Source: Corynebacterium sp.
GTDB taxonomy: Bacteria; Actinomycetota; Actinomycetes; Mycobacteriales; Mycobacteriaceae
DNA length: 64,000 nt
Direction: 5' to 3'
Assembly: GCF_030532325.1 (NCBI RefSeq)
Contig: NZ_JAUNLS010000001.1
Coordinates: 228,633 to 292,632, forward strand
Shown here: in pieces, positions 21,193 to 60,556 of the stretch
Position numbering within the stretch: the stretch's first letter is position 1
Layout of the letters: every line of letters starts with the position of its first letter
Notes under the pieces: generated by a model
Seen by the model: the letters and a program-made list of their open reading frames with translations, nothing else
The model's database searches: none
Told to the model about the DNA's origin: nothing
Program-made: the position numbers and the translations under genes

Positions 21193-23249
<2,057 letters not shown>

Positions 23250-42605: not shown

Positions 42606-44602
42606 TAACTATTCACCTTCTCAAAAATGGCGAGGATTTCTTCCTTCGTGGTGGCCTTCTCCAGCTTCTCCACGGTCTCAGCCTTGCCAAAGATCTTGGC
42701 GATCTTGGACAAGGTCTTCAGGTGCGAGCCATCCGCGCCGGCGATGCCGACAATGAACGTAGCGGGCTTGCCGTCCCAGTCTACGGGCTCGTCCAGGCGG
42801 ATAAAGGAGATGGCGGATTCCTTGATGGCGTCCTTGGCCTCGTTGGTGCCGTGCGGGATGGCCAGGCCGTTGCCCATGAAGGTGGACACGGACTTCTCGC
42901 GCTCGTGCATGGCGTCCACGTAGGACTGATCCACCGCACCGGCGGCCACCAGCAGCGCTCCGGCCTGATCGATGGCCTCGTCACGGCTGACGGCGTGCCC
43001 GCCAAGGACGATCGTGTCCGCGCTCAGCACCTGTTTGGTCTGCACTGCGGTGCCACCCTGCGCGGCTGCCTCTGCGGTCTCGCCCTGCTTGGCGACGTCC
43101 TCCTGGCCTGCCTCTACAGGCTCGGACGCGGCGGCTGCGGTACCAGTTTGCTGCTGGCGGATAAGCTCAACGACCTCATCGTAGCGCGGGGAGCCCATGA
43201 AGTTATCCACGGTGACGTGGATGGCCGAGGGCGTCACCGGCGCAGCGCGATCCGCCAAGTCCTGGTGGACGACGACGAGATCGTAGTCATCCTTGAGGTT
43301 GTTGATCGCGGAGTTAGTCACGGTCACGACGCCGCCAAAGCCGGCCTCCTTGATCTTGTTGCGCAGCACGGAGGCACCCATAGCAGAGGAGCCCATGCCG
43401 GCATCGCAAGCGAAGACTACGTTGCGGATCTCCGGAGTTTCTGCGGCCGAGCCACCAGTCAGGGCACCGGCGACGGAGGACTTCTTGCCCTTCATGGACT
43501 CCATCTCCGCAGTTGCCTTTTCCAGATCGTCCTCGCCCTTGGTGAGCTTGAGGATCGGCGCTGCAATGAGGAAGGACACGGCCGTCGACGCCAACACGGC
43601 GATGGTCACGCCCAGGTAGGAATCAGAGGCCACGGTGCCGTAGATGGCGATGATGGATCCCGGTGCCGCCGGGGAACGCAGGCCAACGTCCATCATGGTG
43701 TTGATGGCCACGCCGGTCATGCCGCCGCCCATGACGGCCAGCAGCAGCTGCGGGCGCATCAAGACATAGGGGAAGTAGATTTCGTGAATACCACCGACAA
43801 AGTGGATGAGGGCAGCACCCGGGGCGGTTGCTCGCGCGGAGCCCGCGCCGAAGATCATGAAGGCCAGCAGGACACCCAGGCCGGGGCCGGGGTTGGCCTC
43901 CAGCAGGTAGAGCACGGACTTACCGGTCTGCGCTGCCTGGTCGGTGGCCAGCGGGGTGAGCACGCCATGGTTGATGGCGTTGTTGAGGAAGAAGACCTTG
44001 GCCGGCTCGATGAGCGCGGAGGTCAGCCACAGCAGATTGTGGGTAATGAGGAATTCCACTGCCTTGCCGGCAACATCCATGATGAAGTTCATCACCGGGG
44101 TCAGCAGGTACATGGAGGCGATGGCGCCGACGAAGCCAAAGATGCCCAGGGAGAAGTTATCCACCAGCATCTCGAAGCCCGGGCGGATCTTGCCCTCCCA
44201 CAGCTTCTCCAGCTTCTTGAACAGCCACGCGGCCAGCGGGCCACAGATCATGGCGCCAAGGAACATCGGCGAGGCGTGTCCGTCTTCACCGATCCACTCC
44301 GGGGCGGAGGTACCCATGATGACACCCATGGTGGTGATCGCACCGACGACGCCACCGCGGACATCGTGGATGAGCTTGCCGCCGGTGTAGGCGATGAGGA
44401 TCGGCAGCAGGTAGGTCACCATCGGGCCAACGAGGGTGTTGATGTGCTCGTTGGGAGTAAAGCCTTTAGGGATGAAGAACGCCGTAATGATGCCCCAGGC
44501 AATGAAGGCACCGATATTCGGCATGATCATTGAGGACAGGAAGGTACCGAATTTCTGAACGGCGACGCGCGCGCCGCCTTTCTTTGCTTGTGTCTCAGCC
44601 AC
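42605..44602 (-). CDS. mtlA: PTS mannitol transporter EIICBA
   Basis: A 665-residue fused phosphotransferase permease. The IIC membrane domain is at about 1-350 (IMPNIGAFIAWGIIT, then FLNNAINHGVLTPLA). The IIB domain has the phosphocysteine Cys399 in FACDAGMGSS. The IIA domain has the phosphohistidine His584 in GLAIPHGTNEAK. Linkers between domains are Ala/Gln/Glu-rich. It takes up and phosphorylates mannitol, passing mannitol-1-P to MtlD. The all-in-one IICBA form is usual in proteobacteria and firmicutes. A 204-bp divergent region to the hydrolase-like gene contains its promoter. No MtlR is visible here. Confidence 0.92.
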   Translation of the reverse strand: MAETQAKKGGARVAVQKFGTFLSSMIMPNIGAFIAWGIITAFFIPKGFTPNEHINTLVGPMVTYLLPILIAYTGGKLIHDVRGGVVGAITTMGVIMGTSAPEWIGEDGHASPMFLGAMICGPLAAWLFKKLEKLWEGKIRPGFEMLVDNFSLGIFGFVGAIASMYLLTPVMNFIMDVAGKAVEFLITHNLLWLTSALIEPAKVFFLNNAINHGVLTPLATDQAAQTGKSVLYLLEANPGPGLGVLLAFMIFGAGSARATAPGAALIHFVGGIHEIYFPYVLMRPQLLLAVMGGGMTGVAINTMMDVGLRSPAAPGSIIAIYGTVASDSYLGVTIAVLASTAVSFLIAAPILKLTKGEDDLEKATAEMESMKGKKSSVAGALTGGSAAETPEIRNVVFACDAGMGSSAMGASVLRNKIKEAGFGGVVTVTNSAINNLKDDYDLVVVHQDLADRAAPVTPSAIHVTVDNFMGSPRYDEVVELIRQQQTGTAAAASEPVEAGQEDVAKQGETAEAAAQGGTAVQTKQVLSADTIVLGGHAVSRDEAIDQAGALLVAAGAVDQSYVDAMHEREKSVSTFMGNGLAIPHGTNEAKDAIKESAISFIRLDEPVDWDGKPATFIVGIAGADGSHLKTLSKIAKIFGKAETVEKLEKATTKEEILAIFEKVNS

Positions 44603-44806
44603 AGTTTTTCCTTTTCTTTGACCTGGCGCGGAAGCATGCGCTCCGCGCTAAGAGACTTCCTACGGAAATCCTATTACCCAATAAGGAAAACAGGTACTTT
44701 AGCGGCGGTTTTGCTTCATGAACAAGCCCAGCACGCAGGGGACGTGCTCGTGGGCGCCCGCACGTTCATCCGCGCGTTGCATGCTCTTTCCTCTATTCTG
44801 GAGGGC

Positions 44807-45640
44807 GTGTCTGCGAATTTGAAGAAGCATCTAGCAACGTTGTCCAAGCGTGGTCCCCACCGTGTCATGGTGGGTGACCTCTCCTACGCCGGTATCGAGG
44901 GCAAGGTGTACACGCCCGCTGAGGGCAAGGGCCTTCCTGCTATCGCCTTCGCGCACGACTGGACGAAGAAGGTCAAGGATTACCACGCCACCCTGCGCCA
45001 CCTGGCTAGCTGGGGCATTGTGGTCACCGCACCGGATACGGAAACCGGCGTGATGCCGAACCACCGCAACTTCGCTGCCGACGTCGAGTCCGCGCTGCAG
45101 ATTGCCACCAACGTGCGCATGGGCAGCGGCAAGATTTCGGTCTCGCCTGCCAAGCTGGGCATCGTGGGCCACGGCATGGGCGGCGGCGTGGCGGCGCTGG
45201 CCGCGGTGGACAACGACAAGGTCCGCTCCGTGGCCGCCGTCTACCCCGCGGATACCGCGCCCTCAGCCGCACAGGCGGCACGCAAGATTAACGCCCAGGG
45301 CCTGATTATCGGCTCCGGCCGCGACGATATCTTCGCCGCCGGCAACCCCGCGAAGCTGGCCTACAACTGGCGTGGCCCGGTGGCTTACCGCGAGATTGCT
45401 AAGGGCACCCAGTCCGGCTTCAGCGAGGACACCGCCTTCAAGCTGACCCTGGGTTCCGGCCTCTTCCAATCCTCCCAGGTGGAGACCGCCCGCGGCCTCA
45501 TTACCGGCTTCCTGCTGGCCACCCTGAACAACGAGTCCAAGTACAACGGCTTTGCTGAGCCCGAGGCCACCGCCAAGGGCGTGGAGAGCTTCGTGGGCGA
45601 AGAGCTGGCTGAGAAGGCCAGCTTCCGCCGCGACGCCTAA
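44807..45640 (+). CDS. Alpha/beta-hydrolase-fold protein lacking the nucleophile serine
   Basis: A 277-residue protein of the dienelactone/PET-hydrolase-like group. Fold markers include AIAFAHDWTKKVKDY and the nucleophile elbow LGIVGHGMGGGVAAL at about 116-130. The elbow normally reads G-H-S-M-G, but the codon is ggc (Gly), so the catalytic Ser is absent. The acid loop GSGRDDIF is kept. The expected SH near the last loop is replaced by GTQSGF, so the catalytic His also seems missing. It is therefore a probable pseudo-enzyme with a binding or structural job. GTG 44807 was chosen for good family agreement (MSANLKKHLATLS). It runs divergently from mtlA and converges on the T7SS-like operon. Confidence 0.75.
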   Translation: MSANLKKHLATLSKRGPHRVMVGDLSYAGIEGKVYTPAEGKGLPAIAFAHDWTKKVKDYHATLRHLASWGIVVTAPDTETGVMPNHRNFAADVESALQIATNVRMGSGKISVSPAKLGIVGHGMGGGVAALAAVDNDKVRSVAAVYPADTAPSAAQAARKINAQGLIIGSGRDDIFAAGNPAKLAYNWRGPVAYREIAKGTQSGFSEDTAFKLTLGSGLFQSSQVETARGLITGFLLATLNNESKYNGFAEPEATAKGVESFVGEELAEKASFRRDA

Positions 45641-45663: not shown

Positions 45664-45927
45664 TCACTGCGGGTCATAGGCGGAGCGAAGCACCGACTTC
45701 ACTGACTTGTAATTCTTATTCGGGCGGGAAGCTCCGCCCGCGCCCCAGCCGCCCTGGGTTCTTCTTTCTGCTGAGCCAGTGTTCGCCCGGGCACTCTCAG
45801 CTGCTCGCTGCGCAGACTTTTCCAGGTCCTCTTGGGCCTTGGCCATTGCTTTTTCAAATTCCAGCAGCCGGGCAGCAGTGCGCTGCCGGAAGCCGCGGGC
45901 AAACTCATCAAAATCATTGCTGGGCAT
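45664..45927 (-). CDS. Small charged protein at the end of the T7SS-like operon
   Basis: An 87-residue protein without signal or membrane segment. Residues 5-55 form one long predicted helix with heptad spacing (FRQRTAARLLEFEKAMAKAQEDLEKSA). Residues 56-87 are Gly/Asn/Lys-rich and basic. ATG 45927 is chosen over 45933, as it overlaps the preceding stop (TAATG), which implies translational coupling. It is the third gene of the operon that begins at 47857. Its size and helical nature suggest a binding partner or chaperone for the large protein, but there is no homology evidence. Confidence 0.65.
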   Translation of the reverse strand: MPSNDFDEFARGFRQRTAARLLEFEKAMAKAQEDLEKSAQRAAESARANTGSAERRTQGGWGAGGASRPNKNYKSVKSVLRSAYDPQ

Positions 45928-47546
45928 TACCACTGACCTGCCTTTCGGGCGCGTACGGAAGAACCTTGTGAACTACTCTCAGCGCCTGCCTCAGGTGCTG
46001 GTGCGGGAGCCGGTGCCGGCGGCTCGGGTGCCGGTGGGGCTGGAGCTGGATCGGGGGCTGGCTCAGGCGCCGGCGGGGCGCTGGGCGCTGCCGCGGCCTG
46101 CATGTGAGCAACCTTCTCCGGCGGCGGGGTGGGCTCCTCCACCTGGGCCAGCTCTGGCGGCGGTGGGATAACCCCGTCCGCCGGTGGCTGTGGCTCCTCC
46201 GGGCAGGGCTCCGGCTCAGGTTCCGGCGCTGGTTCTGGGGCGGGCTCCGGAGGCGGTTCGGGAGCAGGCTCCGGGCACAGCTCGGGGAGGTTTTCGAGGA
46301 AGTTCGCGGCGGCGTCGACAAGCAAGCCCACGCCCACAATCGCAACGCCCACCCCGAGCACACCGAGCACACCAGAGCACGTATCTTCCACCGTGCACTC
46401 GGACTGCGCTGGCTCCTCCGGGCAGGGCTCCGGGGCTGGTTCCGGCTCAGGCTCTGTCTCTGGCTCAGGCAGCGGCTCGGGTTGTGGCTCGGGCTGCTCC
46501 GGCGCCGGGGTGCACGTGCACTGGGAAGGCTGCCCACACTGGCAGGAGTTGTTGTCCGGCTCGGGTGTCTCCACCTGGCACGGTTGAGTCGGCGGCACCA
46601 CAGGCTCCGGCGGGGTCTGCGCCGGGGTGGTCGGCGGCACCGGCTTCTTCTCTGGCGGGCATGGTTCCGGTGTCGGTGCAGGCTTGGGCTGAGATTGTGG
46701 TTCCGGCTGAGGTTGTGATTCCGGCTGTGGCTCAGGCTTGGGCTGTGGGGTTGATTGCGGAGCGGGCTCTGGCGGGCACTCCGCCTGCGCAGTGCCGGTG
46801 CCAGGATTGCTCGGTGCTAGCTCGCAATCCTCCACGCCCGAAGGCCTTTCCGGGGTGGACGGGCAGGAGCTCTCCTTCGGCGGCTCACACGCCTGAGGGC
46901 AGGCCACCTCAGGTGGGGTCTCCGGCAGGGGCTTGTCACACATGGCAGAGCAGCGCTTCTCAAACTCGGCGTAGCACTGCTCAATGGCTGTATCGCGGTC
47001 CCGGCAGGTCTCCGCAATGGTGCCGTTGGTCTGCTCAATGAGGGAGCCGCCGATGCGCGAAAGAATCGGCACAATGAGCGCGCCCAGCGGGTGGCGGGAG
47101 GCAACCATAGTCAAGATGTTGAGCAGCGGCACCACCGCGGAAATGAGCTCCGCCACGGCGGTATCGGCCACATCGACGACCTCCTGAACCGCATCCGAGC
47201 ACTGCTGCGCCGACTCGGTGAGCTCATCGCCTTCGCGGCGCTCCTCCTCAAAATCCTCCTGTACGCCCCAAAGATGATCCGCCAACGCTCCCCCAGCGAT
47301 GCTGGCCAGGGTCCCCAGGAGGAAGTCCTTCAGCCCCGTCCCGCCGCGGCCAGGGCGCCGCCCGCCCACGGCGGAGACAGTGTGGGTGACCAGATCCTGC
47401 GGCCTGATGCCATCGACAGAACCCACCATGGTGTCCAACAGCCCGATGGGAGTGCTGGGGCCGGCGTAGGTGCCCTGGCTCGCCGCCTGAAACTGGGATA
47501 CCGCCTGGGAATAGTCCCCCAGGAGCGACTTGGTCATGGTGGACAT
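45927..47546 (-). CDS. Large Cys/Pro/Glu-rich protein, candidate ESX-4 substrate or surface protein
   Basis: A 539-residue protein. Residues 1-200 are mostly helical with Gln/Ala/Ser composition (YSQAVSQFQAASQG, then EDFEEERREGDELTES) and a hydrophobic stretch SAVVPLLNILTMVASRHPLGALIVPI. Residues 205-410 are a low-complexity Pro/Glu/Gln region studded with about 20 Cys, many in CPPEP/CPEEP units. A hydrophobic helix (GVLGVLGVGVAIVGVGLL) at about 410-432 precedes a second Pro-Glu-Ala tail. No signal peptide is present, so export by Sec is unlikely. It overlaps its neighbours by one base on each side. The operon shares a promoter element with the esx genes. The opposite-strand Leu/Arg-rich frames are shadows. 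Confidence 0.7.
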   Translation of the reverse strand: MSTMTKSLLGDYSQAVSQFQAASQGTYAGPSTPIGLLDTMVGSVDGIRPQDLVTHTVSAVGGRRPGRGGTGLKDFLLGTLASIAGGALADHLWGVQEDFEEERREGDELTESAQQCSDAVQEVVDVADTAVAELISAVVPLLNILTMVASRHPLGALIVPILSRIGGSLIEQTNGTIAETCRDRDTAIEQCYAEFEKRCSAMCDKPLPETPPEVACPQACEPPKESSCPSTPERPSGVEDCELAPSNPGTGTAQAECPPEPAPQSTPQPKPEPQPESQPQPEPQSQPKPAPTPEPCPPEKKPVPPTTPAQTPPEPVVPPTQPCQVETPEPDNNSCQCGQPSQCTCTPAPEQPEPQPEPLPEPETEPEPEPAPEPCPEEPAQSECTVEDTCSGVLGVLGVGVAIVGVGLLVDAAANFLENLPELCPEPAPEPPPEPAPEPAPEPEPEPCPEEPQPPADGVIPPPPELAQVEEPTPPPEKVAHMQAAAAPSAPPAPEPAPDPAPAPPAPEPPAPAPAPAPEAGAESSSQGSSVRARKAGQW

Positions 47547-47857
47547 CAGCTTCTCACCTGCCCTTGGCGCGCAAAGTCCTGGGCAAGCTGCGCGTCCACC
47601 GCACTCAGCGCCGCGAACTGATCCCGCGCGGCTTGCGCATTGCGCTCGATATTGTTCAGCCGCCACGCACCACGCTGGTGTAGCTGCGTGAGCAGAGTCT
47701 GTATGCGCACCCCGTGGCCGCCGAAGTCCCGCCCTGTCGAAGCCGCCGGGAAATCCGGGACGTCCGCGCCATGGGCATGTGCTTGTTCGCGTGCTTGCTC
47801 CATCACGTTGCTCAGCAAGCGTGGGGCTTCTTCCTCATCAAAAAACACTTCGGGCAT
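47546..47857 (-). CDS. EspC/WXG100-like small protein, first gene of the operon
   Basis: A 103-residue protein, MPEVFFDEEEAPRLL at the start, with two helical stretches joined around GRDFGGHGV. The second helix (LTQLHQRGAWRLNNIERNAQAARDQFAALSAVDAQLAQ, about 62-100) resembles the C-terminal helix of EspC/WXG-type T7SS proteins, ending in a D-x-x-L pattern instead of YxxxD. The N-terminal helix is acidic. ATG 47857 is chosen over 47965 because AAAAGGAGGG lies upstream and the longer form reads into the glmM terminator. It has its own ECF-type promoter at 47898-47932, 40 nt upstream. The assignment to T7SS is by context and shape only. Confidence 0.6.
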   Translation of the reverse strand: MPEVFFDEEEAPRLLSNVMEQAREQAHAHGADVPDFPAASTGRDFGGHGVRIQTLLTQLHQRGAWRLNNIERNAQAARDQFAALSAVDAQLAQDFARQGQVRS

Positions 47858-47897
47858 ACGCGCCCTCCTTTTAATCCGCGGCCTGTCATTTCCTGCC

Positions 47898-47932
47898 CTT
47901 ATTGGACTGTGCAAGCCAGGCAACGGTTCCCG
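47898..47932 (-). promoter_or_regulatory. ECF-type (SigM-like) promoter of the T7SS-like operon
   Basis: On the minus strand GGAACC (47925-47930) and AGTCC (47904-47908) are spaced by 16 bp. This 35-bp block is 28/35 identical to the one ahead of the esx pair (51575-51609). -35 GGAACC is the usual ECF/SigM-type element in mycobacteria, where SigM turns on ESX-4 esx genes. Confidence 0.7.
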
Positions 47933-47939
47933 AAGACGC

Positions 47940-47972
47940 AAAAATACCGGGGACCCACAGGTCACCCGGTAT
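47940..47972 (-). terminator. glmM terminator
   Basis: ATACCGGG-GACC-CACA-GGTC-A-CCCGGTAT: 12 bp of pairing with one bulged A and a 4-nt loop. On the minus strand it is followed by TTTTT, so it is a textbook intrinsic terminator for glmM, 36 bp after its stop. It isolates the following operon, whose promoter begins 8 bp beyond. Confidence 0.92.
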
Positions 47973-48007
47973 CGCGTGTGTGAAAGGCGGGCTGGCTTGA
48001 GCCGGAC

Positions 48008-50840: not shown

Positions 50841-51128
50841 TTAGCCCCAGCTGGCGGCGGCGCGACGGTTGACGTCGCTCATGTTGTCATTGCCCTGGGA
50901 GACGGTGGTGGAGATGGTGGCCAGCACGGTGTTGAGCTCAGCGGCGGCCTTGTCCCACTTGGCCTGCGCCTCGTTGTAGGCCACTGCTGAATCGCCTTCC
51001 CAGGTGGCCACCATGGGCTGCAGGGTGGACTTGAGGTCACCGAGCAGCCCATTGATGCGACCCGAGGTGGAGTTGATGTCTGCAGCGGCATTGGAGATGG
51101 CGCCGAACTGGTACTTGATTCCGGACAT
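50841..51128 (-). CDS. WXG100 protein EsxA/EsxT-like (ESX-4)
   Basis: A 95-residue WXG100 protein with the W-x-G turn as WEG at about residues 43-45, flanked by two helices (AISNAAADINSTSGRINGLLGD and AYNEAQAKWDKAAAELNTVL). No signal peptide is present. It should form a heterodimer with the partner encoded 44 bp upstream and be exported by the type VII machinery. It corresponds by position to M. tuberculosis esxT (Rv3444c). The C-terminal YxxxD/E export signal is not evident in this one; the export signal may come from the partner or other protein. Confidence 0.93.
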   Translation of the reverse strand: MSGIKYQFGAISNAAADINSTSGRINGLLGDLKSTLQPMVATWEGDSAVAYNEAQAKWDKAAAELNTVLATISTTVSQGNDNMSDVNRRAAASWG

Positions 51129-51172: not shown

Positions 51173-51490
51173 TTAGAGAGCCAGGCCGGCGCCGCCGACG
51201 TTGTCAAAAGCCTGCGAGTTCTCCGCCTCAACGTGGTCGAAGTTGCGGGCGTTATCGCGGATGTTCTCGCTGATGGCGGTCAGTGCCTCACGCAGCTGCT
51301 GTGCGGAGGTGTTGTAGCGCTGCATCAGGTTGTCAAAGGACACCTGTGCGCGGCCCGCCCAGCTGGCGCGAACGGAATCAACCACGCCCTGCAGGCGGGT
51401 GAGCTCACCCTGGACTTCATCATTAGTGGAGTCGACGCGGCCGGCGGTGGCCACCATGACGTCGGCTTCAGTACGGAACGTCTGAGTCAT
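51173..51490 (-). CDS. WXG100 protein EsxB/EsxU-like (ESX-4)
   Basis: A 105-residue WXG100 protein with WAG at about residues 45-47 between two helices (EVQGELTRLQGVVDSVRAS and VSFDNLMQRYNTSAQQLREAL). A C-terminal extension (FDHVEAENSQAFDNVGGAGLAL) is where the export signal normally sits. It corresponds to esxU (Rv3445c). ATG 51490 was taken (MTQTFRTEAD), with MI at 51496 an alternative. Its leader is about 85 nt and carries an ECF-type promoter and a small hairpin, so the esx pair can be transcribed separately from eccC. Confidence 0.92.
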   Translation of the reverse strand: MTQTFRTEADVMVATAGRVDSTNDEVQGELTRLQGVVDSVRASWAGRAQVSFDNLMQRYNTSAQQLREALTAISENIRDNARNFDHVEAENSQAFDNVGGAGLAL

Positions 51491-51574: not shown

Positions 51575-51609
51575 CTTATTGGACTGCGCTAGCGGGCAAT
51601 CGGTTCCCG
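51575..51609 (-). promoter_or_regulatory. ECF-type (SigM-like) promoter of the esx pair
   Basis: Minus-strand GGAACC (51602-51607) is 16 bp from AGTCC (51581-51585), the same spacing and motifs as 47898-47932. The flanks CTTATT and CGG are also shared. It lies between the Rv3446c-like stop (51629) and esxB, about 85 nt from the start codon. SigM-type sigma factors drive ESX-4 esx genes in M. tuberculosis. Confidence 0.7.
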
Positions 51610-51628: not shown

Positions 51629-52735
51629 CTACTTCTTCACCAGGGACTCCGCCGCCATCCGGCAGGCAGCCTTATGCACCACGTTGGGCTGATGCTGGGT
51701 GTGGCAGCCTACGGACATCTGGTGGCCTTTATCCTCCCAGGTGATCCACGTGACCACCGAGCCGTCCCCGGGTTCCTCGGTGTAGCGCAGGCGGCCGGAC
51801 TCCTCGGTGACGTCCTTGAGCGCGGGATCCTCCTCCACCTGGGCCTTGATTTCCGTGAAGAGGGCCTCGATGGGCACGTTGTAGAGCGGATCCGCGGCCA
51901 GCAGGATGCGCAGCTGGGGGTCCTCGCCAGTGGCAGTGACCAACCCATCTTTCACCGCAGTCTGGAATCCCTGCGGCAACACCACGTTCATCCCCTCCAC
52001 GTCAATGCTCTTTTGCCCCGCCTTGGCCCCGTATGCCCCGGCCGCCCCCGAGTCCCCGGCAGGCGCGTCTGGCTGGGCCGCCGCGGAGTGCTGGGCGCTG
52101 GTCGCCGTCACAGTGCTCGCATTCATTTCTGCTTCGGCGGCATCCTTCTTGCCCACCGCCCACCAGGCCACCACCGCCACACCGAGCACCACAGCGGCGA
52201 TGAGCAGGTAGAAGGGGTCTATCCCGCCGGGCAGGCGCAGCTGTGGCAGGCCCGCCAACCCGGCGCGCCGCTTCTTGTCCTTCGGCGTCGAGCCTGCCCG
52301 GCGCCCGGCGCGGGTGCGCGGCTCCTCGGGTCTGTCCCCGGCCAGACCGTGCACCTCGGCGGCGGCACTGGCATCGGCACTGACGTCGGCGCCACCGTGG
52401 GCCTCCGGTTCTTCGGTGGATAGCACCTGCACGCCCACCGCGGCGAGCTGACGGCGCACGATGTCCACGGCCTCGTGGGAGACCTCGGTGCCGGAGGAAT
52501 CGGCGATGACCACCGCCTCAACCTCCGGCCAGTCCGGACCGCAGAGCTTCGCGCATTGATCGATGACATTGTTCAGCGCCCAGCCATCAACAATGCCCGT
52601 GCCCGGGAGGTCGTAGCGGTAGACCGTCTCGGGGCCTTCGAAGATGGTTGCGGCGTCGAGCACCGTGATGCTTAGTACTTCGTTTTCTGATCCGCTCTCA
52701 CCCAGGGTGATCCGCGCGGCGTGGGTCGTGGTCAT
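51629..52735 (-). CDS. Type VII secretion-associated protein (Rv3446c-like)
   Basis: A 368-residue bitopic protein. Residues 1-110 form a cytoplasmic domain (ITVLDAATIFEGPETVYRY), followed by a disordered acidic/basic linker. A membrane helix lies at about 182-200 (FYLLIAAVVLGVAVVAWWAV), and a periplasmic domain is at about 240-368 (VEGMNVVLPQGFQTA). The domain order and position between eccC and esxU match the T7SS-associated Rv3446c family of ESX-4. Function is not known. ATG 52735 overlaps the eccC stop by four bases, so it is translated from the eccC message. Confidence 0.88.
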   Translation of the reverse strand: MTTTHAARITLGESGSENEVLSITVLDAATIFEGPETVYRYDLPGTGIVDGWALNNVIDQCAKLCGPDWPEVEAVVIADSSGTEVSHEAVDIVRRQLAAVGVQVLSTEEPEAHGGADVSADASAAAEVHGLAGDRPEEPRTRAGRRAGSTPKDKKRRAGLAGLPQLRLPGGIDPFYLLIAAVVLGVAVVAWWAVGKKDAAEAEMNASTVTATSAQHSAAAQPDAPAGDSGAAGAYGAKAGQKSIDVEGMNVVLPQGFQTAVKDGLVTATGEDPQLRILLAADPLYNVPIEALFTEIKAQVEEDPALKDVTEESGRLRYTEEPGDGSVVTWITWEDKGHQMSVGCHTQHQPNVVHKAACRMAAESLVKK

Positions 52736-55700
52736 GAGTCTTCTCCTTCAGTGGTTTCTGTCGTGGATTCTGTTTTGGGGCACAGCACCTGCGCCAGCCC
52801 GTGGTTGCGCCCGCGCACCACCCACTGGCCGCGCCCGGGCGGCAGCGCGGTGGGCTTGATGCCAAAGATGGGGCCCTCGTCCCGCTCGGCGTCGAGAAGC
52901 AACACGGCAGGCTGCAGGTCACGCACCGCGGAGAGGAACTGGCCAAACATCGCGCGCCCGATTCCGCCGGCCTTGCGCGCCAGCAGCAGATGCAGCCCCA
53001 CGTCGCGCGCGTGCGGGAGGATCTCCAGCAGCGGGGCCAGCGCGATATCGGAGACCAAGTCCAGGTCATCGATGGCCAGATAAATATCGGGCCCCTCCCA
53101 CCAGCTGCGCGTGGCCAGCTGCGCCGGGGTGACCTCCGGGCCGGGCAGGCGCTGCTCCAGCGTGCGGACGGTATCGAGGATGGCGCTGGTGGCCGCGCTT
53201 GCCGACGCCGCATACACCGCCACCATCTCCTCCGGCAGCGTCCCCAGGTGTGCGCGCCGCTCGTCGATGACCACCAGACGCGCCTCCTCCCGCGGCAGGC
53301 GAGTGATCTCCGCCATGAGCACTGCCAGGAAGGTGGACTTGCCGGAGCCCTGTGAGCCCACGCACACCGCGTGCTGGTGAGCCTCGTGCTGCCAGACCAT
53401 GACGTCGAGGTCCGGCCCGCCGATTCCCCACGCGATCTCCCCCGCGGGCCGCGGCAGGGTTGCACCACCTGCGGCCTGCGGCAACTCCCGCAGCACGGCG
53501 GGCAGCATCTTGAGCCGGGGCGCGGGCTCCGCGCCCTCGTGCAGGCGGCAGATGTGGGCCAGATCCTGCGGCGACGTCGACGCCCACAGCAGGTTCTCCC
53601 CCGCCAGGTTCAGGCCCCGGCCGGGCTTGGCGGGAAGCTTCTGCTGCGCTTTGCGGTCAATGAGGGAATCCATCGCCTCGCCCAGGCGCAGCTCCACGCG
53701 GGCCGAGATGAGGTCGCGGATGGACGGGCGCATGCTCGTCCACCGCGAGGTGGCAATGATGACGTGGATGCGGGCCGAGGCGCCATCGGCCACCAGGTGG
53801 GTAATCGGCTCGGCCAGATCCTCGTAGTCCGCGCCCGAGGTGCCGATGTGGTGCCAGCCGTCAATCACCAGGAAGGTATGCGGCGGCGCCGGGCGCCGCA
53901 CGAAGCCCGCTACTTCGTCGACGATGCGGCGGATTTTCTCCGGCTCCTCGCGTCCGGCCACCGCCGCCACGTGTGGCAGGCGCCCCAACAGCCCCAGCGT
54001 GCCGCCTCCTAGGTCAATGACGTAGAAGCGGACCTGCTGCGGCTCGTGGCAGGCCGACATGCTGGCCACCACGCTGCGCAGCGCCATCGACTTGCCCGAC
54101 TGCGGCCCGCCGCAGATGGCCAGGTGCCCGCCATCGGTAGAAAAGTCCACGGAGAAGGGGTCCTGGCGCTGCTGGTAGGGCCTATCGATGAGCCCCACCG
54201 CCGCGCACAGCGCCGGGGAGTCCGGTTCACAGACCGCGGATAGCTCCACCACGTCCGGCAGCGGTGGCAACCAGATGCGGCGCGCCTCCTGCCCGCGCCG
54301 GGCAGCCTCCCGCGCGGCGGCGGCAACCACGGCGGCAAGCAGCGTCGTGGACTCATCGATCACCGTGGTGTACTGCGCCTCCTGCTCCTCCCGGCCCCAG
54401 CCGGAGAAAAGCTGCACCCGCGGCGCCTGGGACACGGCGTCTGGCTGAAGGGGAATGCGGCGGCGCAGCGGGCCGGAGACGTACGCTGCCTGGAAGCGCA
54501 CAGGCGCATCGGCATCCGTCTTGAGGTAGCCCGCGCCCGGCTGCGCCGGCAGGTGATAGGCATCGGTCACCCCAAGCACCTGGCGGGACTCCGCGGCAGA
54601 AAAGGTCTTAAGGCCAATGCGGTAGGACAGGTGCGAATCCAGGCCGCGCAGCCTGCCCTCCTCCAGGCGCTGCGAGGCCAGAAGCAGGTGCACGTGTAGC
54701 GAACGCCCCAGGCGCCCCACCGCCACGAAGAGCTCCGCAAAGTCCGGGTGCTGGCCCAAAAGCTCTGAGAACTCATCCACCACGATGACCAGTGCCGGCA
54801 GCGGGCCGTGCGCGGCCACCGCGTCCGCGGAGGCGTTGAACTGGTCCACGTTGGCAAAGTTGCCGGCCGCGCGCAGCAACTCCTGGCGGCGGTTCATCTC
54901 TCCGGAAATCGCGTCATACATGCGCTCCACCAGGGTGGACTCCTCCTCCAGGTTGGTGATGACCGCCGAAGTATGCGGCAGGTCATCGCAGCCTAGGAAG
55001 GTAGCGCCGCCCTTGAAATCCACCAGCACCATGTTGAGCTCGTCCGGGCTGTGCGTGGCCGCCAGGGCCACCACCAGTGTGCGAAGAAGCTCGGACTTTC
55101 CCGATCCCGTAGCACCGATGCACAGCCCGTGCGGCCCCATGCCGCCCTGCGCGGACTCCTTAAGATCCAACAGCAGCGGCTGCCCGGACTCGTCCACTCC
55201 GATGGGCACCCGCAGGCGATCCGCCGGGCTGCGCCCCTGCCACATCCCGGCCGCGATGAGCTCATCCACATCGCCGTAGCCCACCAGATCGATAAGGTCT
55301 CCGCCGCGCCCGCGCCGGGGCGCATTCCCGCCCTCACCGCGCTCGGGGCGCCGGAAGGGAGCCAGACTGCGGGCGCGTAGCACGGCATCGGCGTAGTCCA
55401 CCACATCGCAGGCCCCGATCTCCTCCTCCCCGGCGGCGGTGACCACGCGCAGTTGCTCGTCGGCGTGCAGGTAGATGCCCTCGTCCTCGGCCTGGCGGCC
55501 CAGCTGCGAATAGGGGCTCACGCCCACGGCGATGATGGTGGTGATAGTGGGGTCGTCGACAAGCGCGGCGCTCTCCGCCGGCAGGCCGGGGCCCTCGGCC
55601 ACCACGGCGATGCGGTAGCGCGCGGTGGCGGGGTCACGGGCGTGGGGCAGCCACTTGAGCCATTGCCACTCCTGCTGCGCGCGGCCGTCGGTGGCGCCGT

Positions 55701-56454
55701 GGTGGAACTCGATGCCCACCGTCTCCGGCCCGTGCAGCACCGCCAGGTGCAGCACCATCGCCCGGGCCACACCCCAGGCATCCTCGCCGGCCAGGCCCAG
55801 CACGCGGAAGGCTTGCAGCTGGATCACCACCGGCATGTCCTGCACGCTGCCCACCGCCCGCACGGTGTGGCGCACGCTCACCGCGCACACTGGGTCAAGG
55901 TCCTCTGCCGCGCCGGAATCCGGGACGTTGACGGGAGTGCACAGCGAGACCGGCCCGGTGCCCACTCGCACCTCGAGGGCATCAGCAGCATCGCCGGGGC
56001 GCTCCCACAGGCGGTGGGTGCCCACCAGCGCGGCGAGCTCCCGCGGCGCGGGATTGCGGTGCTCCTCGTGGGCGCGTTGCTTGTCCGCATTGCTCAGCGC
56101 GGTTGCTCGCAGGGCGGCGAGGTGGCGCAGGTAGGTCCGCCGCGTCTCATCCGGGTCCTCCCCACCCGAGGCGGGGTTGAACATCATGAACACGCTGGCC
56201 AGCATCATGAGCGGAAACATCAGGCTCATGGGGCTGACCCGGCGCGCATCCCCGGCGCCGAGGACCATGAGCGCTACCATGCCCAGCATCGCCGCCACCA
56301 TGAAGATGGGCATGAGCAGGCGAATCAGCGGTACCGGCTGCGGGCGCACGGCCTCCGGGACGGCCTCGGCCTCGATGCTGCCCTGCGGTAGCGCCGGCGC
56401 GGGTTCGCGGTGCGGCGTGAACTGTGAATCGATGATGCGCGTATGCGAAAGCAC
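52732..56454 (-). CDS. eccC: Type VII secretion ATPase EccC (ESX-4)
   Basis: A 1240-residue FtsK/SpoIIIE-type motor, the single-chain form (EccCa and EccCb fused). Two membrane helices at about 43-94. Three ATPase modules: Walker A1 GATGSGKS at about 447-454 with Walker B LVIVVDEF at 555-562; Walker A2 GGPQSGKS at 782-789; and Walker A3 GSQGSGKS at 1033-1040. Module 1 is the catalytic one; the third is thought to bind the Esx export signal. Start GTG 56454 has AAGGA upstream. It is the first gene of the eccC-Rv3446c-like unit and runs divergently from eccD through a 168-bp region. Confidence 0.96.
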   Translation of the reverse strand: MLSHTRIIDSQFTPHREPAPALPQGSIEAEAVPEAVRPQPVPLIRLLMPIFMVAAMLGMVALMVLGAGDARRVSPMSLMFPLMMLASVFMMFNPASGGEDPDETRRTYLRHLAALRATALSNADKQRAHEEHRNPAPRELAALVGTHRLWERPGDAADALEVRVGTGPVSLCTPVNVPDSGAAEDLDPVCAVSVRHTVRAVGSVQDMPVVIQLQAFRVLGLAGEDAWGVARAMVLHLAVLHGPETVGIEFHHGATDGRAQQEWQWLKWLPHARDPATARYRIAVVAEGPGLPAESAALVDDPTITTIIAVGVSPYSQLGRQAEDEGIYLHADEQLRVVTAAGEEEIGACDVVDYADAVLRARSLAPFRRPERGEGGNAPRRGRGGDLIDLVGYGDVDELIAAGMWQGRSPADRLRVPIGVDESGQPLLLDLKESAQGGMGPHGLCIGATGSGKSELLRTLVVALAATHSPDELNMVLVDFKGGATFLGCDDLPHTSAVITNLEEESTLVERMYDAISGEMNRRQELLRAAGNFANVDQFNASADAVAAHGPLPALVIVVDEFSELLGQHPDFAELFVAVGRLGRSLHVHLLLASQRLEEGRLRGLDSHLSYRIGLKTFSAAESRQVLGVTDAYHLPAQPGAGYLKTDADAPVRFQAAYVSGPLRRRIPLQPDAVSQAPRVQLFSGWGREEQEAQYTTVIDESTTLLAAVVAAAAREAARRGQEARRIWLPPLPDVVELSAVCEPDSPALCAAVGLIDRPYQQRQDPFSVDFSTDGGHLAICGGPQSGKSMALRSVVASMSACHEPQQVRFYVIDLGGGTLGLLGRLPHVAAVAGREEPEKIRRIVDEVAGFVRRPAPPHTFLVIDGWHHIGTSGADYEDLAEPITHLVADGASARIHVIIATSRWTSMRPSIRDLISARVELRLGEAMDSLIDRKAQQKLPAKPGRGLNLAGENLLWASTSPQDLAHICRLHEGAEPAPRLKMLPAVLRELPQAAGGATLPRPAGEIAWGIGGPDLDVMVWQHEAHQHAVCVGSQGSGKSTFLAVLMAEITRLPREEARLVVIDERRAHLGTLPEEMVAVYAASASAATSAILDTVRTLEQRLPGPEVTPAQLATRSWWEGPDIYLAIDDLDLVSDIALAPLLEILPHARDVGLHLLLARKAGGIGRAMFGQFLSAVRDLQPAVLLLDAERDEGPIFGIKPTALPPGRGQWVVRGRNHGLAQVLCPKTESTTETTEGEDS

Positions 56455-58023: not shown

Positions 58024-59264
58024 TGGCTGCGCCAAGGCACCACCGCGGCGGGCGCGCCGTCCTAGCGGCAGTGTTGTGCGCGGTGCTGACGCCGCTGGCT
58101 CCGCTCGCGACACTCACTCCGCTGGCCCCCGCGCCCGCGGCCGCCGCCCGCGAGCCCGATATCGCCTGCGCCCGCACGCAAACCAGCGCCCAGGGGCCAG
58201 TGCCCAGCGCGCAGCAGGCCGCCTACCGTGCGCGCCTTCACTCCTTTGCCACCGGCCGCGGGGTGCGCGTCGCGGTCATCGATACCGGAGTCTCCCCGCA
58301 CCCGCAGCTGGCTCACCTCAGCCCCGGCGCGGACTTCGTCACCGCTGAGGAGCCCGATCCGCTCCGGGACTGCGACGTGCACGGCACCGTGGTGGCCGGG
58401 GTGATCGCTGGGCGCGAGAGCGGGGTGGCGCCCGATGCAGAGATCTACTCCATCCGCCAGACCAGCGCGCACTACCGCTACCGCAGCGAGGAGGAAGACT
58501 CCGGCGCGGGAACCCTGGCCACCCTGGCTGCCGCGATTGACGACGCCGTCCACAACCACGCCAAGGTCATCAACATCTCCGTGGTCTCCTGCGTACCGCC
58601 TGCCGCCGCCTCCCGCGTGGACACCGCCGGGCTGGACGCCGCCTTGCGCCGCGCCGAGGAGGCCGGGGCCGTTATTGTCGCCGCCACCGGTAACGCGGCG
58701 GCCGGCGGCTGCGCCAAAGAGGACGTGGTCTTTCCCGCCAACGCGGAGACCGTCCTGGCCGTCGGCGCGCTGGCCACTCCGCATGACCTTGCCGAATACT
58801 CCATCCCCGCCGCGCACACCGGGCTGGCCGCGGAGGGCCACGTGCCGCTGGCTCTCGATCCCGCCGGCGGCTGGGCCACCGGCAAGTTCGCCCCGAATTC
58901 CAGCAGCGGCGCGCAGGGCGCAAGCGCCAGTGCAGAGCCTCTGGCCTTTCACGGGACCTCCTTTGCCGCGCCGGTGGTCAGCGGCACCGTGGCCTTGCTG
59001 GCGCAGCGCTACCCCGAGGATTCCCCCGCCCAGCTGCGCGCCCGCATTCTTGGCTCTGCCGAGCCCAGCCACGGTGTGGTCGACCCGCTTAACGCACTCA
59101 CCTTCGTGCCCAGCAATTCACCTGTTCCCACCAACGAGCTGGAGGTCCTCCCGAGCGCACAGCACTCCAGCCCGGCGGTGGCAAGGCTGGGCTCGCTAGC
59201 CCTCGTGCTGGCCGCATCGTTGGTTGTGGCTGCTCTGCGGGCCGGTCAGCGGCGCGCAGGCTAG
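58023..59264 (+). CDS. mycP: Mycosin protease MycP (ESX-4)
   Basis: A 413-residue subtilisin-like serine protease with a signal peptide in about 1-42, catalytic triad Asp87 (VAVIDTGV), His120 (HGTVVAG) and Ser313 (HGTSFAAP), oxyanion Asn224 (ATGN), and a C-terminal membrane anchor at about 388-408. MycP stabilises the ESX membrane complex and may process substrates. It converges on eccB with a four-base overlap of stops. Cys at 49, 117, 190 and 230 may form disulfides as in other mycosins. Confidence 0.95.
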   Translation: MAAPRHHRGGRAVLAAVLCAVLTPLAPLATLTPLAPAPAAAAREPDIACARTQTSAQGPVPSAQQAAYRARLHSFATGRGVRVAVIDTGVSPHPQLAHLSPGADFVTAEEPDPLRDCDVHGTVVAGVIAGRESGVAPDAEIYSIRQTSAHYRYRSEEEDSGAGTLATLAAAIDDAVHNHAKVINISVVSCVPPAAASRVDTAGLDAALRRAEEAGAVIVAATGNAAAGGCAKEDVVFPANAETVLAVGALATPHDLAEYSIPAAHTGLAAEGHVPLALDPAGGWATGKFAPNSSSGAQGASASAEPLAFHGTSFAAPVVSGTVALLAQRYPEDSPAQLRARILGSAEPSHGVVDPLNALTFVPSNSPVPTNELEVLPSAQHSSPAVARLGSLALVLAASLVVAALRAGQRRAG

Positions 59265-60556
59265 CTTGCGTGGGCGGCGCGCAGGGCGGCCTCGCGGCTC
59301 AGCTCTGAGCCCTCCGGCAACAGGCGCAGAATCTCCCAGGGCACCTGCGCCGGGTTCTCCACGCCCAGCGCCTTAAGCCCGGCGGCCTGCGGCACGCTGT
59401 GGCGAATGCCGGTGGCGGAAACCACGTGGTAGCCGTGCCCACTATCCACGGCCACTCCGCCAGCACTAAGCCCCGCAAAGCGCTGTGCCACCGAGTCACC
59501 GGCCAGCTCCACGGTGGAGCCCACCGGGGCCAGTAGCGCTGCGCCCGCGCCGGACTCCGGGCGCGCAACCGCGCACAGCCACCCGGCCTCGGGCCCGAGG
59601 AAATCCAGTGCGTGGGGTGGGAGGTGGAAGGGAGAGGGGGCGTCGCCAAGCAGGGCGATTTCTTGTGACTCCGCCGAGAGGCGCTGGGCACCCAGGCCCA
59701 CGAGGATCTCCGCCTGGGTGGCGGTCACCGGGCTCACCCCAGACTCCGTGCGCGCCCACAGGCCCTCCCCGCTGTCGAGGATCTGCGGGGGTTGCTCGGG
59801 AAAGCGCAGCGGCTCGAGCTCGGTGAAGGCGTTGAGCAGCTGCGGGGGAATGTGCCACACGTGCACCTGCGGGTTAATCCCCAGCGCGCGGCGCACCACC
59901 CTGCCCTGGGTGCTCGTGGGATCCGGCAGCGCCACCCGGCCCTCCTGCGTGAGCAGCCAGTCGGTGCCCTCCACCTCGGCCACAGCACCCCGGCTGTCCC
60001 CGACGTTGCTGGCCTGCGCGTTGGCCACCACGGTGACAATCCCCTCCGGGCGAGCCGCGGTCATGCTGGTCGGCGAGCTCTCCCCGGCACCCGCCGGCTC
60101 CTCGAAGCACGCCGCCCACCCGGTCGCACCGGGGCTGGTGCTGGCCAGGAGATTGGGCGCGTCATCAATGCCCAGCGGGGTCCCCAGATGCACCTGGCTT
60201 AAGAAGCTCTCCCCCGCTGCGGCGGGCTCCACGGCTTCGCCCGCGATGAGCCGCGCGGAGGCAACGTTGGCCACCGGGTGGTACTGCTCATTGACCTGCA
60301 CCAAGAGCTGCCCCTCTGGGCTGCGCACCAACGCCGCGTCCCCCGGCTGCGGATCCGGCTGCAACCACGCCACCAGGCCGGAGCCGATGGAAAGAAAAGC
60401 CACCGCGATGACCCCAAAGATGAGCGCGCGGCGGCGGGTGGCCAGCGGATCGTGGATCATGCGGATATCGCCAAAGACCAGGCCGTGCTCAACCCTGCGG
60501 ACCAGAAACTTGTGACCCGAGACCTGGGCCTTGGTGGTGGGCAACGCGCGTGCCAT
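59261..60556 (-). CDS. eccB: Type VII secretion protein EccB (ESX-4)
   Basis: A 431-residue single-pass protein. The cytoplasmic N-terminus ALPTTKAQVSGHKFLVRRVEHGLV is the family signature. A membrane helix lies at about 43-65, followed by a large periplasmic repeat domain with a Cys pair (about 152 and 312). It completes the core complex with EccC, EccD and MycP. EccE is absent, as is normal for ESX-4. The ATG follows GGGGAGGATTC, matching the ribosome site of eccD almost exactly. Confidence 0.93.
   Translation of the reverse strand: MARALPTTKAQVSGHKFLVRRVEHGLVFGDIRMIHDPLATRRRALIFGVIAVAFLSIGSGLVAWLQPDPQPGDAALVRSPEGQLLVQVNEQYHPVANVASARLIAGEAVEPAAAGESFLSQVHLGTPLGIDDAPNLLASTSPGATGWAACFEEPAGAGESSPTSMTAARPEGIVTVVANAQASNVGDSRGAVAEVEGTDWLLTQEGRVALPDPTSTQGRVVRRALGINPQVHVWHIPPQLLNAFTELEPLRFPEQPPQILDSGEGLWARTESGVSPVTATQAEILVGLGAQRLSAESQEIALLGDAPSPFHLPPHALDFLGPEAGWLCAVARPESGAGAALLAPVGSTVELAGDSVAQRFAGLSAGGVAVDSGHGYHVVSATGIRHSVPQAAGLKALGVENPAQVPWEILRLLPEGSELSREAALRAAHAS

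Follow-up and report, generated by a model that had tools for sequence, protein, structure and literature searches.

A glmM-linked three-gene operon of Corynebacterium as a candidate Esp-type substrate module of ESX-4

In a 64,000-nucleotide stretch of DNA from Corynebacterium sp. (NCBI RefSeq assembly GCF_030532325.1, contig NZ_JAUNLS010000001.1, positions 228,633 to 292,632; hereafter the window), three small-large-small genes lie downstream of glmM and close to the genes of ESX-4, and the question is whether their products belong to this secretion system. An earlier note, made from the letters of the window alone, had proposed an ESX-4 substrate operon. We consider it fairly likely that the three proteins are an ESX-4 substrate module of the Esp type, and the best reading of its promoter sequence assigns it to a SigM-like regulon. 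Support for this reading comes from the kept gene order, the joint loss with an ESX-4 marker, the shared promoter, the homology to EspC-like and WXG100-like proteins and the conserved C-terminal tail. The proposal of the earlier note gained partial support, with linkage to ESX-4, an esxU-type promoter and resemblance to type VII pairs arising from separate computations. The open reading frames (ORFs) and the gap that precedes them are as follows.

47546..47857, minus strand: gene 1, 103 amino acids, helical, remote EspC relative (ORF, alignment, model, profile comparison)
45927..47546, minus strand: gene 2, 539 amino acids, helical N-domain, Pro/Glu/Cys-rich, with a hydrophobic helix and a conserved C-terminal tail (ORF, alignment, model)
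45664..45927, minus strand: gene 3, 87 amino acids (89 if GTG 45933 is the start), C-terminal VKSVLR motif (ORF, alignment)
47930..47985, minus strand: terminator-like hairpin and T run in the gap between glmM and the operon (minimum free energy -25.4 kcal/mol, z -4.24)

Genes 1, 2 and 3 follow glmM, all three on the minus strand, and are joined by one-base overlaps (TGATG and TAATG); coordinates and junctions agree with the earlier description of three ORFs of 103, 539 and 87 residues that overlap by one base each. Also as described, none of the three begins with a hydrophobic stretch of the Sec signal type (by eye). Because of the hairpin and T run after glmM, the operon is probably a transcription unit separate from glmM. 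Scans of the three window proteins against Pfam and NCBIfam gave no match above chance level. The ESX-4 locus lies upstream of the operon and comprises eccB, a mycosin gene (TIGR03921, 259 bits, slightly below the family cut-off), an eccC-like ATPase gene, a TIGR03931 gene, esxU and esxT, with rplM, rpsI and glmM (all three named by eye) between esxT and the operon.

47905..47931, minus strand: promoter element of the operon, extracytoplasmic function (ECF)/SigM-like, GGGAACC-N16-AGTC (pattern search)
51582..51608, minus strand: matching promoter element upstream of esxU (pattern search)
50841..51128, minus strand: esxT, WXG100 (ORF and family scan)
51173..51487, minus strand: esxU, WXG100 (ORF and family scan)
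51629..52735, minus strand: Rv3446c-type protein, TIGR03931, which serves as the ESX-4 marker (NCBIfam scan)
52732..56454, minus strand: eccC-like ATPase of ESX-4 (identified from its position and by eye)
59261..60556, minus strand: eccB, TIGR03919 (Pfam and NCBIfam scans)

The promoter element ties the operon to the esx genes. When distinct Corynebacterium loci were searched with the pattern GGGAAC-N(14-19)-GTC, 34 of 46 had the element in the gap from glmM to gene 1 (spacing 18 in 29 and 19 in five) and 27 of 38 had it before esxU, with both places occupied in 25 of the 38; the 46 include some close relatives and a few loci where the operon lies away from glmM. Control upstream regions gave no match for esxT (0/39), rplM (0/40), rpsI (0/41), glmM (0/44), gene 3 (0/33) and alr (0/11) and two for glmS (2/28), the expectation from all matches in these loci being 0.016 per region. 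The sharing of a promoter element by the operon and the esx genes, first noticed in the window, is confirmed. Outside the genus, 16 of 63 loci have the pattern downstream of glmM and 8 of 26 have it close to the start of esxU, mostly in the form ..CGTC, and the Mycobacterium record L186 has the element at both places. At the level of sequence the operon has an ECF promoter of the type that precedes esxU, and it is called SigM-like for its likeness to the SigM consensus.

The gene order is kept far beyond the window. Relatives of gene 1 are present in 28 of 61 Corynebacterium genomes, the genome of the window included, and BLAST of the 27 other loci, which were picked by their gene-1 match, detected the full set of three genes in 21 and gene 2 in 25. 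With a profile of the gene-2 N-domain, 107 of 151 Corynebacterium genomes gave a match. With some variation, the order glmM - small - large - small - hydrolase is also present in many genera of the family and in named Rhodococcus, Gordonia, Mycobacterium and Mycolicibacter records. An alignment from these outer genera was needed since a profile built from Corynebacterium only matched seven of 151 family-wide genomes, six of them Corynebacterium. In a wider survey, 41 of 80 glmM loci were inspected; small and large pairs near glmM were also seen in Saccharopolyspora (L148) and Kutzneria (L170), as judged by order and by eye only, and no such pair was seen in 12 of the 41, from other actinobacteria that have no ESX match in the fetched stretch.

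Whether the operon follows ESX-4 could be asked outside Corynebacterium; EccB is matched in 150 of 151 Corynebacterium genomes, so co-occurrence is not resolvable within the genus. The marker TIGR03931 was found at E <= 0.001 in 135 of the 151 family-wide genomes (125 above the curated cut-off), and the 140 non-Corynebacterium genomes divided into 121 marker-positive and 19 marker-negative ones, three of the latter with partial matches below 25 bits; G278, which has a like match, stayed among the positives. A gene-2 match of at least 45 bits was present in 103 of the 121 positives and in 2 of the 19 negatives, an association that its p value of 2e-10 overstates because the negatives come mostly from two clades. 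The misses among the 18 positives without a strong match are partly ones of detection, as the operon is visible in several of them (G157, G161, G169 and G173). In the group g3, all nine genomes inspected (of 10) have glmM directly adjoining the hydrolase gene, with the operon absent and the marker not above 25 bits; EccB in nine and EccE in nine of these ten genomes indicate that the loss did not take every ESX system. G252, which has no EccB match, keeps the gene-1 ORF with gene 2 cut to a 47-codon fragment (by eye), and three related g9 genomes have the full large gene. EccE was tried as an ESX-4 exclusion marker and dropped, because two g9 genomes have it next to EccB, upstream of their ESX-4 locus.

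Several genomes weigh against a strict dependence on ESX-4. In three g13 genomes a shortened gene 2 and gene 3 persist, and one of them, G162, lacks any EccB match; two further g13 genomes retain only a gene-3-like ORF; and G186, G214 and G248 have the large gene without a TIGR03931 match. The expectation of the earlier note that the operon would occur only where ESX-4 occurs is therefore borne out by its absence in g3 and its decay in G252 and contradicted by its retention in these genomes, and what was found is genetic linkage to and co-occurrence with an ESX system, with named exceptions. A first alternative is that the operon is a cell-wall gene set that merely adjoins glmM and glmS and is unrelated to ESX-4. 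In line with it, some genomes (e.g. G260, genus g30) have the marker far from glmM and the large gene near glmM, and the shortened operon of G162 persists where EccB is missing. This view is already disfavoured and we judge it very improbable, given the joint absence with the marker in g3, the decay in G252, the promoter element shared with esxU and the position of the operon on the ESX-4 side of rplM in G164.

Turning to the proteins, the 103-residue protein, which had been labeled EspC/WXG-like, is a remote relative of EspC. The model of gene 1 (14 sequences, predicted local distance difference test score (pLDDT) 89.4) has helices at residues 10-31 and 43-102, and its alignment retains a G-R/K-F motif and, further on, an H and a D. 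The PF10824 (EspC) profile matches neither the window protein nor any of 20 Corynebacterium relatives. Among the gene-1 proteins of outer genera it matches 4 of 13, the best at 3e-10 and one at 24.7 bits against a cut-off of 23.5, and the Corynebacterium profile in turn matches the outer-genus profile with E 1.4e-9 and probability 96 over 103 columns, while an unrelated pairing, our control for profile comparisons, gave E 0.22. By this chain of profiles gene 1 shares remote ancestry with the EspC family.

Gene 2 has the helical head, the roughly 20 Cys in CPPEP/CPEEP units and the central hydrophobic helix that were read from the window at the outset: we count 21 Cys, the units CPPEP and CPEEP and a single strongly hydrophobic stretch at about residues 390-417, behind a head that is modeled as helical. 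The number of Cys ranges from 5 to 25 among the large proteins of Corynebacterium relatives.

46935..47546, minus strand: helical N-domain of gene 2, residues 1-204, with a long hairpin 86-151/155-203 (model)
46959..46973, minus strand: YAEFE, a Yxxx[D/E]-type motif, residues 192-196, near the hairpin end (alignment, sequence)
46296..46373, minus strand: Gly-rich hydrophobic helix of gene 2, residues 392-417 (sequence)
45930..45950, minus strand: conserved C-terminal tail ARKAGQW (tail count, sequence)

The N-domain model (225 amino acids, 12 sequences, mean pLDDT 82.4) contains two long helices, 86-151 and 155-203. Its Yxxx[D/E] motif lies at the predicted hairpin end in the window, yet is retained in only 10 of 21 aligned rows; a C-RDRD..CY-like motif is present in most rows. 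PF06013 (WXG100) matches 11 of 22 outer-genus N-domains (E up to 1, best 5.3e-7); the window N-domain has no match to it, and the family is absent among the 25 of 28 families listed for 21 Corynebacterium N-domains. The Corynebacterium and outer-genus N-domain profiles match with E 1.1e-5 and probability 82, colinear across 211 columns, and by these profile comparisons the long helical hairpin of gene 2 is homologous to the WXG100-like domains of outer genera. Foldseek returned no match at E <= 0.001 for either the gene-1 model or the gene-2 N-domain model; PE25, EsxB-type and PPE41 chains are among the structure matches, but their scores tie with those of unrelated helical proteins.

This ancestry bears on a second alternative, namely that the proteins belong permanently to the ESX-4 machine as accessories, be it for assembly, for gating or as a conduit in the outer layer, and are not released substrates. 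The strong association with the ESX-4 marker, the fixed position and the combination of a hydrophobic helix with a long Pro-rich span would suit such a role. EspC- and WXG100-like ancestry indicates substrates instead, the promoter is common to the substrate genes esxUT, and no strict-pattern site (GGGAACC-N16-AGTC) precedes eccB, eccC or mycP in the genome of the window, so we rate a machine part as quite unlikely.

The C-terminus of gene 2 is highly conserved within the genus. In 31 of 32 Corynebacterium large proteins, picked solely by adjacency to gene 3, the end is G-x-W (or G-x-W-x) with a tail of the form ..KAGxW; among 298 further long ORFs whose base bias is coding-like, one has such an end. 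Outside the genus, Gly followed by one or two residues closes 19 of 27 large proteins, with tails such as AEAGPL, LAGDR and LPQVGR, and the remaining 8 end differently (by eye); this count was not blind to the tail, as in five loci the chosen ORF was not the top-ranked one. A derivation of the tail as a copy of the EsxU or EsxT end was rejected, since EsxU of Corynebacterium mostly ends GLAL and EsxT SWG; EsxU of other genera often ends LNL or LNI. In the loci L072 and L102 (genus g7), operon-like genes stand by glmM with the tail ..IPSF, and no ESX-4 genes were seen beside rplM.

Two uses of this tail can be considered. C-terminal signals of EsxB are read by EccC, according to published work (PMC6954902), so that the conserved tail of gene 2 could be an export signal. 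The other use belongs to a third alternative, in which gene 2 is a Ppr2-like envelope signaling adaptor whose C-terminus docks in the PDZ domain of a site-2 protease of the Rip1 type and modulates the regulated proteolysis of an anti-sigma factor, perhaps the one that controls the SigM-like factor behind ESX-4; the tie to ESX-4 would then be regulation, or a mere route to the periplasm. PDZ domains typically recognize C-termini, and the Corynebacterium C-terminus is highly conserved behind a low-complexity stretch. By its position, Rv3439c (Ppr2) is presumably the glmM-proximal large gene of M. tuberculosis. A two-hybrid screen with the Rip1 PDZ domain recovered Rv3439c, as related in passages of a review (PMC6963305), which makes a PDZ-ligand role of the tail possible; those passages do not specify which part of Rv3439c binds. 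The tail also varies between genera (KAGxW, AEAGPL, LAGDR, LPQVGR), and the joint loss with a secretion-system marker exceeds what a signaling role needs. We regard an adaptor role as unlikely.

Gene 3 retains an FR-R..R..EFE helix and a V-S/G-VLR-like end, and, because 13 of 21 aligned rows begin MVM, its start may lie two codons upstream (GTG 45933, MVMPSNDF). The gene-3-like ORFs that stand alone between glmM and the hydrolase gene in two g13 genomes (by eye) are at L115:13450-13716 and L125:13366-13644, with glmM oriented on the plus strand, and suggest that gene 3 may have a separate role. Downstream of the operon in the window are a PETase/dienelactone-hydrolase-like gene at 44588-45640 on the opposite strand and then glmS; the hydrolase gene faces the operon in the compared Corynebacterium loci and stays beside glmM in the g3 loci without the operon. 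The closest named relative of the window's glmM is that of Corynebacterium macginleyi (88 percent).

If the proteins are indeed an Esp-type substrate module, gene 1 would be the EspC-like helical partner and gene 2 the large EspA/PPE-like partner, and the two would probably pair through their hairpins and be co-exported through EccC4. After export, the Pro/Glu/Cys-rich region of gene 2 may form a stalk, probably disulphide-bonded, which together with the Gly-rich hydrophobic helix would place the protein in or across the cell envelope. A partner would recognize its last residues, and this partner would be EccC or else a PDZ protein, for example the Rip1 protease; gene 3 would probably be a cytosolic helper.

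The strict pattern GGGAACC-N16-AGTC has seven sites in the genome of the window, all 10 to 86 bases ahead of a gene start, against one for the reversed pattern; a looser form gave a third match in the window, at plus-strand position 22058. The seven sites precede this operon, esxU, recA (C16:22675, L208/L215, with the site 58 bp ahead of the gene and a recX-like ORF, by eye, behind it), a SAF-domain gene upstream of a gene that is mscL-like by eye (C23:26515, L209), a GmrSD_C/HNH nuclease gene whose product has an N-terminal hydrophobic stretch (C27:50074, L210, by eye), the gene of a 254-amino-acid protein without a Pfam match (C13:163287, L207) and, from C33:177060 onward (L211/L218), an 89-amino-acid EspC-sized ORF 10 bp behind the element, followed by the gene of a 312-amino-acid NlpC/P60-domain protein. 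The 89-residue protein has no Pfam match, and by position and promoter it and the NlpC/P60 protein are a candidate second ESX-4 substrate pair. The site before recA suggests that a SigM-like factor may serve both ESX-4 and recombination. In mycobacteria, esx-4 genes have been reported to be activated by SigM (passages of PMC10117145), and according to a review, cell contact leads SigM to regulate a nuclease and a cell wall hydrolase along with ESX-4 (PMC9514802). The likeness in kind between this contact-regulated set and the seven-site set, seen in one genome only, is striking. It would fit a SigM-like regulon, induced by contact or stress, in which recA, the nuclease and the SAF protein are coupled to ESX-4 substrates (EsxUT, the present module and the EspC-sized protein with its wall hydrolase of the NlpC/P60 type), with ESX-4 serving DNA uptake or DNA transfer from cell to cell and gene 2 as an envelope-spanning part of the transfer apparatus. 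Such a role has been proposed for SigM-ESX-4 in M. smegmatis; for Corynebacterium we hold this extension to be doubtful.

Among known systems, the closest in plan are espACD and espE-espF of ESX-1, in which EspC or EspF is the small partner and EspA or EspE the large one. Common to both are a small EspC-like protein beside a larger one whose helical N-domain is of WXG type (in the outer genera), a small third protein and the link to an ESX system. The operon of the window differs in being ESX-4-linked and located at glmM, in a large protein that is rich in Pro, Glu and Cys and has a KAGxW/AEAGPL tail, in a third gene that is short and not of EspD or EspH size, and in the lack of a Pfam match for its own proteins. 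The PE/PPE pairs of ESX-3 and ESX-5 are resembled by the predicted PE25-like hairpin and the PPE41-like long hairpin with its Yxxx[D/E]-type motif; however, the window proteins have no Pfam PE or PPE match and the fold similarity lies within the background of helical proteins. EsxU and EsxT are neighboring genes with an identical promoter element and differ in being single WXG100 domains. In M. tuberculosis, Rv3440c-Rv3439c (Ppr2) presumably occupies the same place downstream of glmM, and the mycobacterial records L153 and L186 have a large gene there with the tail ..ELPQVGx and a SigM-like element upstream.

The literature seen, as listings, abstracts and passages, treats Rv3440c-Rv3439c as a Rip1-PDZ interactor or a conserved hypothetical and not as an ESX-4 substrate; the PDZ interaction is the single functional statement on these genes, and no description of the operon as ESX-4-linked was found there. 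A search of ESX-4 literature with Pro-rich and EspC-like terms gave no match for such proteins, and no title among the matches listed ties an ESX-4-recA regulon to Corynebacterium. Passages of the papers concerned name EsxU/EsxT as ESX-4 substrates in M. abscessus (PMC9401124) and ExsI as one in C. glutamicum, which has a single ESX locus (PMC12607788).

The operon is a candidate ESX-4 module, whose parts resemble known Esp-type substrate operons and whose three window proteins have no Pfam or NCBIfam family. ESX-4 is regarded as the ancestral ESX system and few of its substrates are known, and the operon supplies concrete candidates, which appeal because they occur in many genera, stand behind an esxU-type promoter and are mostly missing where the ESX-4 marker is missing. 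The conserved C-terminal tail is a defined motif, and the seven-site regulon opens a possible link of ESX-4 to DNA exchange to direct test.

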